From a bacterium (lineage in GTDB: Bacteria > CSSED10-310 > JAJRTK01), in assembly GCA_024278345.1 (NCBI GenBank), contig JAJRTK010000266.1, positions 1-13,508 on the forward strand: a stretch of DNA of 13,508 bases. The letters run 5' to 3'. How positions within the stretch are numbered: the stretch's first letter is position 1; each line of letters begins with the position of its first letter. Positions 133-13,508 of the stretch are shown one piece after another. The position numbers were made by a program, and so were the translations under genes. The notes below the pieces were generated by a model. The model was not told the DNA's origin. It worked only from the letters and a program-made list of their open reading frames with translations, and ran no database searches.

Positions 133-2940
133 CTACCCTTCCGCCAGGACCAGGCCCGACGGCAGGCTTTCTCCGTAGACCCAGCTCCTTTCCTTGCCCT
201 TCAAGGCGGCCCCTGGATCCTCCAAAAGCTTCATGAGCTCTTCGCCCTTGGGCTGCCGGGCCAGCCAGTCCCGGACGCGATCCCGGGCTTCGGCTGGCAG
301 GTCCCGGGCGCGGTCGCCTGTCCGGCGGGCAAGATGCACGACCGCATGACGAAGGGCATGGGTGGCCTTGATCTTGGGCGACAACAGGATGTCCAGCCAG
401 GAGGCGACTTCCGCGGACGCCACCACCCGATCCATGGGTCCATAGAACGGGACCCGCGCTCCCAGGCGACTCAGCGCCCAGATATGCTGCTCGGCGGCCT
501 TTCCCTTGCGGATCCGCGGGAGCAGCCAGCGGCCCAGCTTTTGCTTCGTCGCCGGCGAGAGCCTCTCGAAGTTGGCCAGGGCCATCCAGGCTTCGATCTC
601 CTCCTGCTGATTGAAGCGGCGGCCCTTTTTCTTGCCGCCCTTCACTTTCCCCGACTGTCCCGGCTTCAGGCTCGGGATGACCTTGTGGGAGATCTGCTCC
701 TGCTGCCCGGTGCTCAGGCCTCCGGCGCAGCGGCGCCAGAAGATCCACCACTGGATCCAGCAGGGAGTGTCCGACGGATGTTTCAACCCGTGCAAAAAGA
801 GCTTCCAAGCCTGCTTGATCCGCCATTCATCCAATGGGTCCCCGAAACCGGGCCGGAGACAGAAGCCCAGGAGATTGAGCCACCTGGCCTCGTGGTGGGG
901 AGATAGGCCCGGCCCCTCCGTCTGCTGGAACAGAGTGTCCGCCAACTGCCGGATAAGCCCCGTGGGCCACCGGGGCCGCCGGAGAGCCAGAACTGATTCC
1001 AGCTCCCTCACCAGCCGCTCCACTTCCCCCTTCGACGAAGCCGGTTTTGAAAAGACGCCCTGGACCCGCAGCCGCGCCTGCTCAATCAGGGCGGCATCCA
1101 CCGTCGTGCCAGCCGATTCGGGTTTGTCAGAGCCCGCCGCCTCCGGTTGGCGAACATCGAACAAGAGCCGCCACCGGTGGGAAGTTTCCCGGGATTCGCA
1201 CCATAACTCCAGGGTCCCCACCTCCGTGAGCTTCACGAAGAGAGTCACCGGCAGCTCCCTGGCCGAGGATTTTTTTCCAAATCTCAGAAGCGTGCGAATC
1301 GGAGGAAGAGGCGTAACTTCAGAAGCAGGAAGCTGAAGAATCTGTCCGAGCTTGTCTCCCAGTCTCGTGCTGGAGGAGAGCATTTTGAACAACACCGGCT
1401 GGTTCGTCCGCACCTGGAAGAAGGGTTTCTCAAGGCGAGACTCGGTCCCTTCCTCCGCGCTACGGGGGACAAGGCAAACCGCCGTGCCGGCCTGGAGCTC
1501 GTCATCGGCCTTCGGTGGAGCGACCTCGACATAATAGGCTCTGGGGGTTCCCGCGCCCACCCGGACGCCGGCTCCAAGGCGAACCTGGCCGTAATAGGCC
1601 GCCCCGATGGCGACGGCAAGCTCCGGCCTTGGATTGGAAAGCTCCCGTGCCACCTCTTTCTTCGCGGCGGGAAACCAGCTCCGGATCACCTCTTGTAGCC
1701 GGCGGCGCACGGATTTTGGGGTGAGAGCCCCTCCGTTGAAGAGAACCCAATCGGGAGAGAGCTCCTGGCGGCCTGTTTCCTGGGTCAAGAGATCCCGGAA
1801 CCTGGTCCAGAAGGTCGCCAGATGGCGGGTGATGGAGGGATCCTGCACGTATGGCAGCCCCCATTCCGTGAGTCCCCGGCGCCTGGGCGGCTTCGCTGCG
1901 TCCGCAACGGAGACGGCGGCGAAGAAGCCGTCAAGAATCTTTTCCTCCACCTCGGCCCACTCAAGGCGCGCTCGAAGTGTCCCGGCAATCAGACCGCTTC
2001 CCGAGCCCACCAGGGAGAGTCTCACCATCTCCTTCTCCCTGCCTTCGGCCAGAAGGATCTCCTTGGCCTTACGGCATTTGTGGACCAGTTGGTGCCATTT
2101 CCCCGCTTCCAGTTGCCCCGGTTTTTTCCCCAGTTTCTGTTCTACATACCGGGCCAGGGTCAGATCCATATTGTCTCCGCCCAGCATCAGGTGATCGCCC
2201 ACGGCCAGGCGATCAAACTTGAGGCCCTGCTCGCCCTGTCGGACGGCGATGATGGTGAAGTCGGTGGTTCCGCCGCCCACATCGCAAACCAGGATGATTT
2301 GGCCCGCCTCCATCCTCTCCCGCCAGTCGCTTTCGTGGCGGGAGAGCCAGGCGTAAAAGGCGGCCAGCGGCTCTTCCAGAAGGACAACTTTGCCCAGTCC
2401 CGCATCCCGTGCGGCGCGAACGGTCAGCTCCCGAGCGACTTCGTCGAAGGAAGCCGGCACCGTGAGTGCGACCAATTGCGATTCCAGAAACAATTCCTCG
2501 TCACCGCGGGCCATGAGGGAGTTCCAGGCTTCCCGGATATGGCCGATGTAGCGGGCACTGGCCTCCACGGGGGACACCTTCCCCACTTCCTCGCCGGCAC
2601 CCCAGGGCAAAATGGGTGCCGTTCTGTCCACGCCGCCATGGCAGAGCCACGATTTGGCCGAGGAGACCAATCGTCCCGGCACGGAGGCACCCTGTTCCCG
2701 GGCAAGCTCGCCCACGAGCCAGCTTCGCTCCGAAGCCCACGGAAGCGCCGTGGCCCCCTCGGGAAGCTCGTATTCACCGGGAAGATAGGTGAACGACGGA
2801 AGCACTGGGCGCTCCAGGATCTGCCCTGGCGCCACGAGCTGCGGAATCGGCAAAAAGCGGATCCCGCCATCGCCTTCGACTTTGGAATAAGCCACAGCCG
2901 AATTCGTCGTCCCCAGATCGATACCCACCACGTATTCCAT
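133..2940 (-). CDS. Hsp70-like protein with DUF3731-type C-terminal extension (935 aa)
   Basis: This is a cytoplasmic Hsp70-superfamily ATPase. The nucleotide-binding domain has all the key motifs: phosphate-1 IDLGTTNS (7-14), the DnaK K70 equivalent at K96 in SSAKSW, the E171 equivalent at E190 in LLEEP, phosphate-2 DVGGGTTD (220-227) and GGDN (254-257). A short, divergent substrate-binding beta region ends near EVGTLELWC (about 577). The last ~340 residues are helical and rich in Trp and Arg, with a basic patch GGKKKGRR near 772. This matches the DUF3731 family attached to such Hsp70s. There is no classical lid and no EEVD tail. The frame is open upstream to 3057, but the ATG at 2940 is chosen because it starts exactly at the Hsp70 N-terminus and lies 10 nt after the TAG of the upstream paralogue. 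Translational coupling is likely. Substrates are unknown. The family call is firm; the function is inference. Confidence 0.93.
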   Translation of the reverse strand: MEYVVGIDLGTTNSAVAYSKVEGDGGIRFLPIPQLVAPGQILERPVLPSFTYLPGEYELPEGATALPWASERSWLVGELAREQGASVPGRLVSSAKSWLCHGGVDRTAPILPWGAGEEVGKVSPVEASARYIGHIREAWNSLMARGDEELFLESQLVALTVPASFDEVARELTVRAARDAGLGKVVLLEEPLAAFYAWLSRHESDWRERMEAGQIILVCDVGGGTTDFTIIAVRQGEQGLKFDRLAVGDHLMLGGDNMDLTLARYVEQKLGKKPGQLEAGKWHQLVHKCRKAKEILLAEGREKEMVRLSLVGSGSGLIAGTLRARLEWAEVEEKILDGFFAAVSVADAAKPPRRRGLTEWGLPYVQDPSITRHLATFWTRFRDLLTQETGRQELSPDWVLFNGGALTPKSVRRRLQEVIRSWFPAAKKEVARELSNPRPELAVAIGAAYYGQVRLGAGVRVGAGTPRAYYVEVAPPKADDELQAGTAVCLVPRSAEEGTESRLEKPFFQVRTNQPVLFKMLSSSTRLGDKLGQILQLPASEVTPLPPIRTLLRFGKKSSARELPVTLFVKLTEVGTLELWCESRETSHRWRLLFDVRQPEAAGSDKPESAGTTVDAALIEQARLRVQGVFSKPASSKGEVERLVRELESVLALRRPRWPTGLIRQLADTLFQQTEGPGLSPHHEARWLNLLGFCLRPGFGDPLDEWRIKQAWKLFLHGLKHPSDTPCWIQWWIFWRRCAGGLSTGQQEQISHKVIPSLKPGQSGKVKGGKKKGRRFNQQEEIEAWMALANFERLSPATKQKLGRWLLPRIRKGKAAEQHIWALSRLGARVPFYGPMDRVVASAEVASWLDILLSPKIKATHALRHAVVHLARRTGDRARDLPAEARDRVRDWLARQPKGEELMKLLEDPGAALKGKERSWVYGESLPSGLVLAEG

Positions 2941-2950
2941 CGCCTGTCCG

Positions 2951-4774
2951 CTACCCTTCTTCGTCCCGTTCCAGCAGATTGAACTCGAGCTTCCACCGCT
3001 GTTTCTCGGCGTCTCTGGCCACGCACCAGAGCTCCAGCGTCCCGACTTCGGTGACACCGCTCTCCAAGAAGACCGGCTGCACGGCGCCCTTGCTCTCTTC
3101 CTCGGTCACCTCAAGCTCTGTTTCCATGGTGGTCACTTCCTGGATCTCTCCGCTCCAGTCCTCGACGATCTCGCCGGCCTCATCCTCTTTCCGCACGTTG
3201 GAGGCCAAGAGATGGAAGACCGATGGCTCCCCCACCACCAAGCCGAACTCCTTCTGGCGAATCTGGCGGCTGGTCCCCTCTTCCATGCCGTGGGGGACCA
3301 CGCAAAGCGCTTTCATCGGGGTCGGAATCCCTGGCACAGCCGGCATGGAGCTCTCGACACCGATATAGTAAGCATGGGCCGTGCCTCCTCGGATTCTCAC
3401 GCCTCGACCCTGACGGGCCAGCCCATAGTAGGCCGCGCCTCTTGCTACGGCCAGATCCAGGTCCTTGGACTCCAACTGGCGAACCTCCTCACCACCGCTG
3501 CCCCAGCTCCGCAAGAGCCCCAGCACGCGCTCCCGAAGAAGGCCCGACTTCATCACGCCGCCGTTGAACAAGACGGCTGCCGGCACGCCACTCTCCAGCC
3601 CGCCCGATTCGGCCTGTCTGCCCAAAAAACGGGCCAAATGCCGGGTCATTCCTGGATCGGCCTCGTACGGCAACCCGAATTCCCGAAGCCCCACCCGAGC
3701 TTTCCGTTCCGGATGGTCCGAAGAGCCGCACTTGGGGAAGAAGCCGTCCAAGAGGACCGATTGCAGCTCCCGCTGCGTCAGCTCCGTCCGGATGGTGCCA
3801 CCGATGAGGGACGATCCCCGCCCCACAATGACTACGGGGACGGCTTCGAGGGAGGGATGCGCCAAGAGCCTCTCCTTGGCCGCACGGCAACTGTGCCAGA
3901 GCCCCCGAAACTGCCAGGAATCGAGTTTTCTCTTTTTTTGCGCCAGCTTCGCGCGGATAGCATAGGCAAGCGTCAAGTCCATATTGTCGCCGCCCAGCAA
4001 GATGTGCTCGCCCACGGCCACGCGTCGAAGCGCCAAATCCCCGGATTCCTCCTCTACCCGGATCAGGCTGAGGTCGGTTGTCCCGCCTCCGATGTCGCAA
4101 ACCAGCAGGGACTCGCCCACGTGGACTCTTTTTCTCCACGCCCGGCCGCTGGCGGCAATCCAGGCGTAGAATGCGGCTTGGGGTTCCTCCAGGAGAGTCA
4201 GATCCGGGAGGCCGGCGGATTCCGCGGCCTGGACCGTCAATTCCCTGGCCACGGCATCGAAGGAAGCGGGGACCGTCAAAAACAGGTCCTGCCTCTCCAA
4301 CCGCAAAGCGGCATTCCCCTCCGCCATCCGGGCATTCCAGGCGTCCCGCAGGTGGCGCAGGAGCCGAGCCGAGGCTTCCACGGGGGAGACCCGGCGGCCA
4401 TCCTCGTCACCGTCCCACGGCAGGATATCGGCCCTCCGATCGACGCCTCCGTGACAAAGCCACGACTTCGCCGACGAAACCAGGCGGCCCGGGAGCTCCG
4501 ATCCCCGCCCGCGGGCGTACTCGCCCACGCACCAATCAAGCTCTTGGTCCCAGGGAAGCGCCAGCGCCCCCTCTGGCACATCGTGGGGGCCGGGGAGGAA
4601 GAGAGAAGAGGGCAGGAGCGGCTGCGCCTTGACCTCCCCGGGATTCACAATCTGCGGGATCGAGAAAATTTGGATCTCCGGTTCGGTGCTCTCGTCAGCG
4701 GGGACCTCCGTGAAGGCCAGCACGCTGTGGGTGGTTCCCAAATCGATACCGACAATATACCTGGCATCCTTCAA
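2951..4774 (-). CDS. Hsp70-like protein without lid domain (607 aa), TTG start
   Basis: This is a paralogue of the downstream 935-residue protein and collinear with it up to EVGTLELWC, where it ends. It is therefore an Hsp70 nucleotide-binding domain plus a short beta domain, with no helical lid or DUF3731 part. Motifs seen: IDLGTTHS (10-17), K103 in SSAKSW, E197 in LLEEP, DIGGGTTD (227-234), GGDN (261-264), and LFNGGV in lobe II. The frame is open to an ATG at 4897, but that adds 41 unrelated residues. The TTG at 4774 is preferred: AAAGGAGG (4780-4787) lies 5 nt before it, and translation then starts MKDARYIVGIDLGTT as in homologues. It follows the DUF2760 gene by 89 nt and precedes its paralogue by 10 nt, so all three probably share a transcript. 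ATP-dependent chaperone activity is expected from the family. The client and any J-domain partner are unknown. Confidence 0.93.
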   Translation of the reverse strand: MKDARYIVGIDLGTTHSVLAFTEVPADESTEPEIQIFSIPQIVNPGEVKAQPLLPSSLFLPGPHDVPEGALALPWDQELDWCVGEYARGRGSELPGRLVSSAKSWLCHGGVDRRADILPWDGDEDGRRVSPVEASARLLRHLRDAWNARMAEGNAALRLERQDLFLTVPASFDAVARELTVQAAESAGLPDLTLLEEPQAAFYAWIAASGRAWRKRVHVGESLLVCDIGGGTTDLSLIRVEEESGDLALRRVAVGEHILLGGDNMDLTLAYAIRAKLAQKKRKLDSWQFRGLWHSCRAAKERLLAHPSLEAVPVVIVGRGSSLIGGTIRTELTQRELQSVLLDGFFPKCGSSDHPERKARVGLREFGLPYEADPGMTRHLARFLGRQAESGGLESGVPAAVLFNGGVMKSGLLRERVLGLLRSWGSGGEEVRQLESKDLDLAVARGAAYYGLARQGRGVRIRGGTAHAYYIGVESSMPAVPGIPTPMKALCVVPHGMEEGTSRQIRQKEFGLVVGEPSVFHLLASNVRKEDEAGEIVEDWSGEIQEVTTMETELEVTEEESKGAVQPVFLESGVTEVGTLELWCVARDAEKQRWKLEFNLLERDEEG

Positions 4775-4863
4775 TTGGGCCTCCTTTCGCGATTCCGGGA
4801 AGGCAAACGCCAAGACGGCAGCCGCCGCCAAGGGTGTGGGGAAACGTAGGCGTTCAACCAGGG

Positions 4864-5634
4864 CTAAACTTCGACCTCTGCCGGAGCCACGACCCATTGA
4901 TCCTTCTGTTCCGCGGTCAGTTTTGGCAGATCCAGTTTCACGACCCTCCAGCCGCGATGGCGAAGAACCCCCTTGAAAGGTGGATCCCCTTTCACATTGC
5001 CCGTAAGGCGGATCGCTCCCGCGTCAAAACCGGCGTCCACTGAGATTTTCGATCCTTATTCATCCTTGAAGACCGGTTCGAGCTTCACCGATTCGGTGAG
5101 CGCCTCGCGGCAACCCTCGTGGACACTCCGCACGGCGGCTCCGATCTGGTCGTCCTCGAACTCGCTGAGGTCTTCCTGTAAAAAGTCGATGAGCCGGCCC
5201 TTCCGTTGAAGAAGAGCCAACACCTGGACTCCGGAATCGATGGAAGGTTTTGGCGGAACTTTCTTCGATTCAGTTTTCTTCTTCGGCGATTTTACGGGCT
5301 TTCCCTCCGCTGCGTCCTTGGAAGCTCCAGCCATCTGGGTGAGCCGAGCTCCCTGCATCCAGGCCAGGAACCAAACCAGGACCAACGCGCCCCCGCCAAA
5401 GAGAACGGTCTTAGGGGAAAGCTCCCTGGCCGCCGCCTCTTCCTTCACCTTTTCCACTACAAGTCCCCAGGGATCGGGCGGCCCCACCATATCGGCCTGC
5501 ACCTCGGCCTCAAGCTTCTCCAGGAGCGCTGCCGACGAGCGGGACGATTCAAACGAAAGAAAACCGAACATCGCAAGCAGACAGACCAGGCAAGAAACCA
5601 GGCACTGGAGCGCGATTGTCTGTTTGGGTGGCAT
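4864..5634 (-). pseudogene. DUF2760 membrane protein interrupted by an in-frame TAA
   Basis: The open part (5056-5634, 192 aa) starts at an ATG with GGAGG (5640-5644) 5 nt upstream. It has two hydrophobic segments (about 6-27 and 76-94), a Lys-rich linker (107-130), and the DUF2760 core LLQRKGRLIDFLQEDLSEF (141-159) followed by DDQIGAAVRSVHEGCREAL. It stops at TAA (5056-5058) after FKDE. The same frame then continues for 63 sense codons to a TAG at 4864-4866. These encode GSKISVDAGFDAGAIRLTGN, then PPFKGVLRHRGWR, and end APAEVEV, which is how DUF2760 proteins normally end. Homologues, as I remember them, have an acidic residue such as Glu before GS, so one GAA-to-TAA change would explain the break. 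DUF2760 has no known function and is typically found beside these Hsp70s. Either the gene is truncated, or this is a sequencing error, or (least likely) the stop is read through. Confidence 0.88.
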
Positions 5635-12599: not shown

Positions 12600-13508
12600 A
12601 TGGCTACTTCTCCCACCATCATGGACTCCCCCGCTGAAGCCACCCGTCGGCCCGCCGACGGTTTCAGGGTCCACGCATCTCCGGAAGAGTCCACGCGACA
12701 CCAAGATGCCACCCGCGGTTTCCGGAATACCGGCGAAGATCCTCCCGCGGACTTCCCAACGCGCCAGCGACCCGCCCCTACGAAGGAAGACCTCTTCGCA
12801 CAAAAGATCATCCGCGAGCTGGAAGAGATCGAGCTCGTCTTCGACGATGGGATCCCCATGGAATCTCCCTGGCACCGCTTCCAGATGAACCTTCTCATCG
12901 AGCTCACACACTGCCACCTTTCCCCTCGCGAAGACTTCTACGTCGGCGGGAACAATTTCATCTACTTCAGTCTCCAGCAGGTGAGGAACAAGGACTACCG
13001 TGGCCCCGACTACTTCATGGTCCTGGCCGTAGATGGCGCCAAGGAGAGGGACGGCTGGGTCGTCTGGGAAGAGGGCGGTCGCTATCCCGATCTCATTCTA
13101 GAGCTTCTTTCACCTTCCACACGCCAACGGGATCTGGTCACCAAGAAGCGCCTTTACCAAGACGTCTTCCGCACGCCAGAATACCTCTGTTACGGTCGCG
13201 AAGGAGCGGAGCTCATGGGATGGCGCCTCACCAACAGCGGCTACCGCCCCCTGAAAGCCAACCCCGATGGCCGCCTCTGGAGCGAGGCGCTGGGGGCTTT
13301 CCTGGGGCCTCACCACGAAAAGCGCTGGGGAATTGAAGCCCCGTGGCTGCGTCTCTACGACTCCCGCGGACACCTCATCCCCACCGACGCCGAAGCCGAA
13401 AAAGAACGCGCCGAAGCCGAAAAAGAACGCGCCGAAGCCGAAAAAGAACGCGCCGAAGCCGAAAAAGAACGCGCCGAAGCCGAAAAAGAACGCGCCGAAG
13501 CCGAAAAA
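12600..13508 (+). CDS. Uma2-family (DUF820) PD-(D/E)XK-fold protein, 3' truncated by window end
   Basis: The frame is open from ATG 12600 to the last base (303 codons, no stop). AAGGAGG (12589-12595) lies 4 nt before the ATG. A variable, Pro/Arg-rich N-terminus (1-60) precedes the Uma2 domain: HRFQMNLLIELTHCHL (92-107), RGPDYFMVLAVDG (134-146), and the core RYPDLILELLSPSTRQRDLV (161-180) with KK (182-183). The spaced D, E and K fit the restriction-endonuclease-like active site of PF05685. Nuclease activity is assumed in databases but rarely shown. From residue 264 the protein is a perfect heptad repeat AEAEKER (5.7 copies in view), expected to form a highly charged helix or coiled coil. It lies just beyond the group II intron remnant. 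The true C-terminus is off the window. Confidence 0.9.
   Translation, partial: MATSPTIMDSPAEATRRPADGFRVHASPEESTRHQDATRGFRNTGEDPPADFPTRQRPAPTKEDLFAQKIIRELEEIELVFDDGIPMESPWHRFQMNLLIELTHCHLSPREDFYVGGNNFIYFSLQQVRNKDYRGPDYFMVLAVDGAKERDGWVVWEEGGRYPDLILELLSPSTRQRDLVTKKRLYQDVFRTPEYLCYGREGAELMGWRLTNSGYRPLKANPDGRLWSEALGAFLGPHHEKRWGIEAPWLRLYDSRGHLIPTDAEAEKERAEAEKERAEAEKERAEAEKERAEAEKERAEAEK
13389..13508 (+). repeat. 21-nt perfect tandem repeat encoding AEAEKER heptads
   Basis: The unit GCCGAAGCCGAAAAAGAACG plus a final C is repeated 5.7 times with no mismatch and runs off the window. Because 21 is divisible by three, copy-number change would add or remove whole heptads without a frameshift. Confidence 0.95.

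Follow-up and report, generated by a model that had tools for sequence, protein, structure and literature searches.

An in-frame TAA codon splits an otherwise intact DUF2760 gene in a draft bacterial genome

Introduction

In the window, the whole stretch of 13,508 nucleotides that was analysed, a gene of the DUF2760 family meets a TAA codon in the middle of its conserved domain, after which the same frame runs on to a further stop. The question raised by this locus is whether the TAA reflects a fresh mutation, a base error, a stop passed by ribosomes, a boundary between two genes, or a codon with another meaning.

Structure of the interrupted DUF2760 gene

The gene and its neighbours were assigned as follows:

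5059..5634, minus strand: DUF2760 gene, codons 1-192, ATG start; PF10816 positions 3-61, 75.7 bits
5056..5058, minus strand: in-frame TAA, codon 193; among 110 homologues, 109 have Glu and 1 has Asp here
4867..5055, minus strand: 63 open codons after the TAA, second half of DUF2760, undecayed; PF10816 positions 64-124, 80.8 bits
4864..4866, minus strand: TAG, regular gene end, in the same frame as the ATG
2951..4774, minus strand: Hsp70-like gene (PF00012), downstream in the same operon; neighbour in 99 of 110 loci
133..3057, minus strand: second Hsp70-like gene, with C-terminal DUF3731 (PF12531, 296 bits; PF00012)

The DUF2760 gene starts with the ATG at 5634-5632 on the minus strand, with GGAGG six bases upstream, and is made up of 192 codons, the TAA and 63 more codons before the TAG. 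The first 192 codons encode N-terminal hydrophobic segments, a charged linker and the first half of the DUF2760 domain. A sequence-only reading of the window had described the TAA as splitting an otherwise complete DUF2760 gene, and this was borne out by two adjacent matches to PF10816, each of which separately passed the Pfam gathering score of 25 bits (75.7 and 80.8), while the whole frame, read through with its one internal TAA, scored 171.5 bits. The PF10816 profile has 124 positions and the TAA is located between positions 61 and 64; as the two pieces match adjacent parts of the profile (3-61 and 64-124), the stop falls midway in one small domain. The further open codons, reported in that reading without a strand, were located at 5055-4867 on the minus strand. 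A chance open frame of 63 codons would not reach 80.8 bits against exactly the part of the domain that the first piece lacks. An uninterrupted frame across the 124-position domain, which is a trait of the homologues and lies outside the Pfam definition, is lacking in the window copy.

In a six-frame search of its own genome, this gene was the single DUF2760 match. The 28 bases around the TAA occurred once in the genome, so a second intact copy was not found there. As anticipated, annotation by open reading frame would return a 192-residue protein, or one of 331 residues from an upstream TTG. The TAA matters mainly for annotation in this respect, since an automatic call would drop half of a conserved domain, the part after the stop.

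The TAA site in homologues

The codon at the TAA site was GAG in 62, GAA in 47 and GAC in 1 of the 110 homologues, which matched the expectation of an acidic residue, and a stop was found there in none of them. TAA is one substitution away from the codon of the relatives. Around the site the window has VFKDE*GSKISV, against IFKDEEGKEVTV in the closest full-length relative. The window copy is homologous to the DUF2760 family (PF10816) over both halves, and its hydrophobic N-terminus can be aligned with those of the closest relatives; in contrast to the family, a stop inside the domain was seen only in the window copy. Relatives that end at the TAA site with the 63 downstream codons unconserved, named in the sequence-only reading as counter-evidence, were looked for and not seen.

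These homologues came from several searches. An alignment query of named genomes found 502, of which 80 loci were kept, and the closest full-length loci among the 80 belonged to Candidatus Scalindua and Syntrophobacteraceae. One phylum of 195 genomes, chosen as the phylum of the sole match among more distant genomes, was also searched; the domain was carried by 123 of them, with no internal stop in any of the 123. Both DUF2760 and DUF3731 were absent from all 7 other genomes of the organism's own phylum that were searched. No close DNA relatives of the gene were detected among the plasmids searched, and a protein search of genome contigs with the 192-residue piece alone returned no relatives. 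The nearest homologues were about 40-60% identical to the window protein, and with none nearer the age of the lesion is poorly constrained. In a relative from goat rumen (L169 2048-2671), two TAA codons were observed near each other upstream of the DUF2760 domain; the pair lies at a long distance from the domain, in an N-terminal part that is not conserved, and probably precedes the true start.

Preservation of the codons after the TAA

The mean identity to the homologues was 57% for residues 136-192 and 56% for residues 194-256. All 12 of the positions conserved in at least 95% of homologues were retained before the TAA, and so were all 16 after it, which upheld the statement that the post-stop sequence is well preserved. 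In a neutral simulation, the retention of all 16 positions without a new stop occurred in 9% of cases at 5% substitutions per site and in 1% at 10%. Since the downstream part is undecayed, either the change is very recent, or the draft genome is in error, or the downstream part is still in use. A young stop and a base error are the simpler readings compared with continued downstream use, and the sequence suggested that a real TAA would be of recent origin.

Isolated stops elsewhere in the genome

Internal stops were surveyed in 225 matches to PF00072, PF00005, PF02518 and PF00873 in the same genome. Three matches were flagged and two proved real:

L099 993-1472, contig C262: lone TAG in an OppD-like ABC transporter
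L104 2101-2475, contig C297: lone TAA in a histidine kinase

The third flagged stop, on contig C313, was rejected because it proved to be the regular end of a histidine kinase gene. Extrapolated from the two real events and the match lengths, the rate would be very roughly 1 per 18,000 conserved codons, or on the order of a hundred genome-wide. With two further lone stops among 225 matches, an isolated stop in the DUF2760 gene is unremarkable in this genome.

A TAA flagged in one other draft genome may be that gene's own end. In an ABC transporter ATPase (L100 962-1492, contig C49), about 50 additional codons are inserted without breaking the frame; the insertion includes GTGILPV and resembles a dispersed repeat.

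Origin of the TAA

A one-off event, either a recent nonsense mutation or a wrong consensus base, very probably accounts for the TAA. By this account, a single base substitution would have turned a near-invariant Glu codon into TAA in an otherwise intact gene, through a very recent nonsense mutation in the population or through a wrong base in the consensus of the draft assembly (6.06 Mb, 550 contigs, 87.9% complete). The two forms are held to be about equally probable. An event of this type is ordinary in kind: recent pseudogenes and draft consensus errors likewise combine one substitution with no other decay and with further isolated stops in the assembly. Of the options listed in the sequence-only reading, a very recent lesion and a sequencing error fitted all the findings, whereas readthrough gained no positive support.

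Misbinning of the contig was considered and rejected. Its G+C content of 0.62 lies about 2 sd above the mean of the sampled stretches (0.587, sd 0.016), while its tetranucleotide profile correlation was 0.963 against a mean of 0.967; this agreement indicated that the contig probably belongs to the genome.

Readthrough would mean that the TAA is tolerated because ribosomes pass it at a rate sufficient for some full-length product, for which we see only a slim chance. The undecayed codons downstream are what such use would leave, and in-frame stops in bacteria have been described as widespread, with dN/dS below 1, and in many cases proposed as tolerated (Belinky et al. 2021, PMC7918605). The window TAA shares with that set a single stop in a conserved frame, probably short-lived. 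However, only stops present in two or more genomes were accepted in that study to exclude errors, whereas the TAA here is known from a single draft genome and was common to none of the 110 homologues, so that it falls outside such a set. The decoding machinery also argued against readthrough. Two PF03462 release factors were found in the genome, as expected for RF1 and RF2, and none of the typed tRNAs among 48 tRNA matches had a UUA, CUA or UCA anticodon; one match was untyped, and with the genome 87.9% complete an unseen stop-reading tRNA is possible. The RNA around and after the TAA folded like shuffled sequences (z -0.10). Moreover, TAA ends 5 of 43 ordinary domain-bearing genes and is thus a functional terminator in this genome. 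The more demanding version, in which a genuine TAA has become fixed in the population and is usefully read through, giving an Hsp70-linked DUF2760 protein in short and long forms, is slightly less credible again. The untyped match is a tRNA-like sequence at L091 373-445 (contig C257), for which ARAGORN gave a two-base anticodon.

It is similarly improbable that the locus now consists of two genes, with translation restarting behind a weak AAGGA at a GTG six codons past the TAA and the two halves assembling. The sixth codon after the TAA is indeed GTG, and TAAGGA stands about a dozen bases ahead of it, but the spacing from AAGGA to GTG exceeds the usual one and a single isolated GTG in 63 codons is the chance expectation. 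In addition, the split point would lie inside a single small domain, and a split gene was seen in none of the 110 homologues.

That TAA is a sense codon for Glu in this organism has practically no chance of being right: the histidine kinase on contig C297 does contain a second internal TAA, where Glu would presumably be usual, but the 225 conserved-domain matches yielded only that TAA plus one TAG, TAA serves as a terminator of ordinary genes, each of the two PF03462 release factors reads UAA, no UUA-anticodon tRNA was found, and the marks of a recoded stop, namely a cognate tRNA, a missing or altered release factor and repeated internal use, were not observed.

Effect on the protein

If the TAA is real, translation would stop there and give a 192-residue product. 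A structure predicted for a close homologue (mean pLDDT 86.6) shows the domain as four helices and then four strands, with the TAA site mapping between strands 58-62 and 71-74. As the site lies between the first and the second strand, strands 71-74, 95-98 and 104-109 would be lost in the truncated product. The product would retain the helices of the domain as well as the hydrophobic N-terminus, but only one of the four beta strands predicted; the alignment placed the well-conserved motifs GFD, RLTGNV, GW and PAEVE in the lost part. A real TAA would therefore probably inactivate the DUF2760 protein. A fold search of the domain against the PDB gave no significant match, a sequence search found no solved relative, and a search of the literature library for DUF2760 found no paper.

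Neighbouring genes

The DUF2760 gene and the two Hsp70-like genes, the second fused to DUF3731, form a compact minus-strand operon at 133-5634. The first Hsp70-like gene has a probable start at the TTG at 4774 behind AAGGAGG, and its mechanical ATG start (4897, giving 2951-4897) overlaps the end of DUF2760. For the second, 3057 is the longest possible start, and translation probably begins around 2940. In 99 of the 110 DUF2760 loci the next gene downstream, on the same strand, is Hsp70-like, and the pair recurs in Myxococcota, Scalindua, Nitrospirae, Acidobacteria and Massilia. No paper was found on the DUF2760-Hsp70 gene pair. On account of the Hsp70 linkage and the hydrophobic N-terminus, our guess is that DUF2760 acts with chaperone-like proteins at the membrane. 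This widespread gene pair is of more interest than the TAA itself.

At the other end of the window (13400-13508, plus strand), a Uma2-type nuclease gene enters a tandem repeat that encodes KERAEAE units at the contig end, and this repeat probably broke the assembly there.
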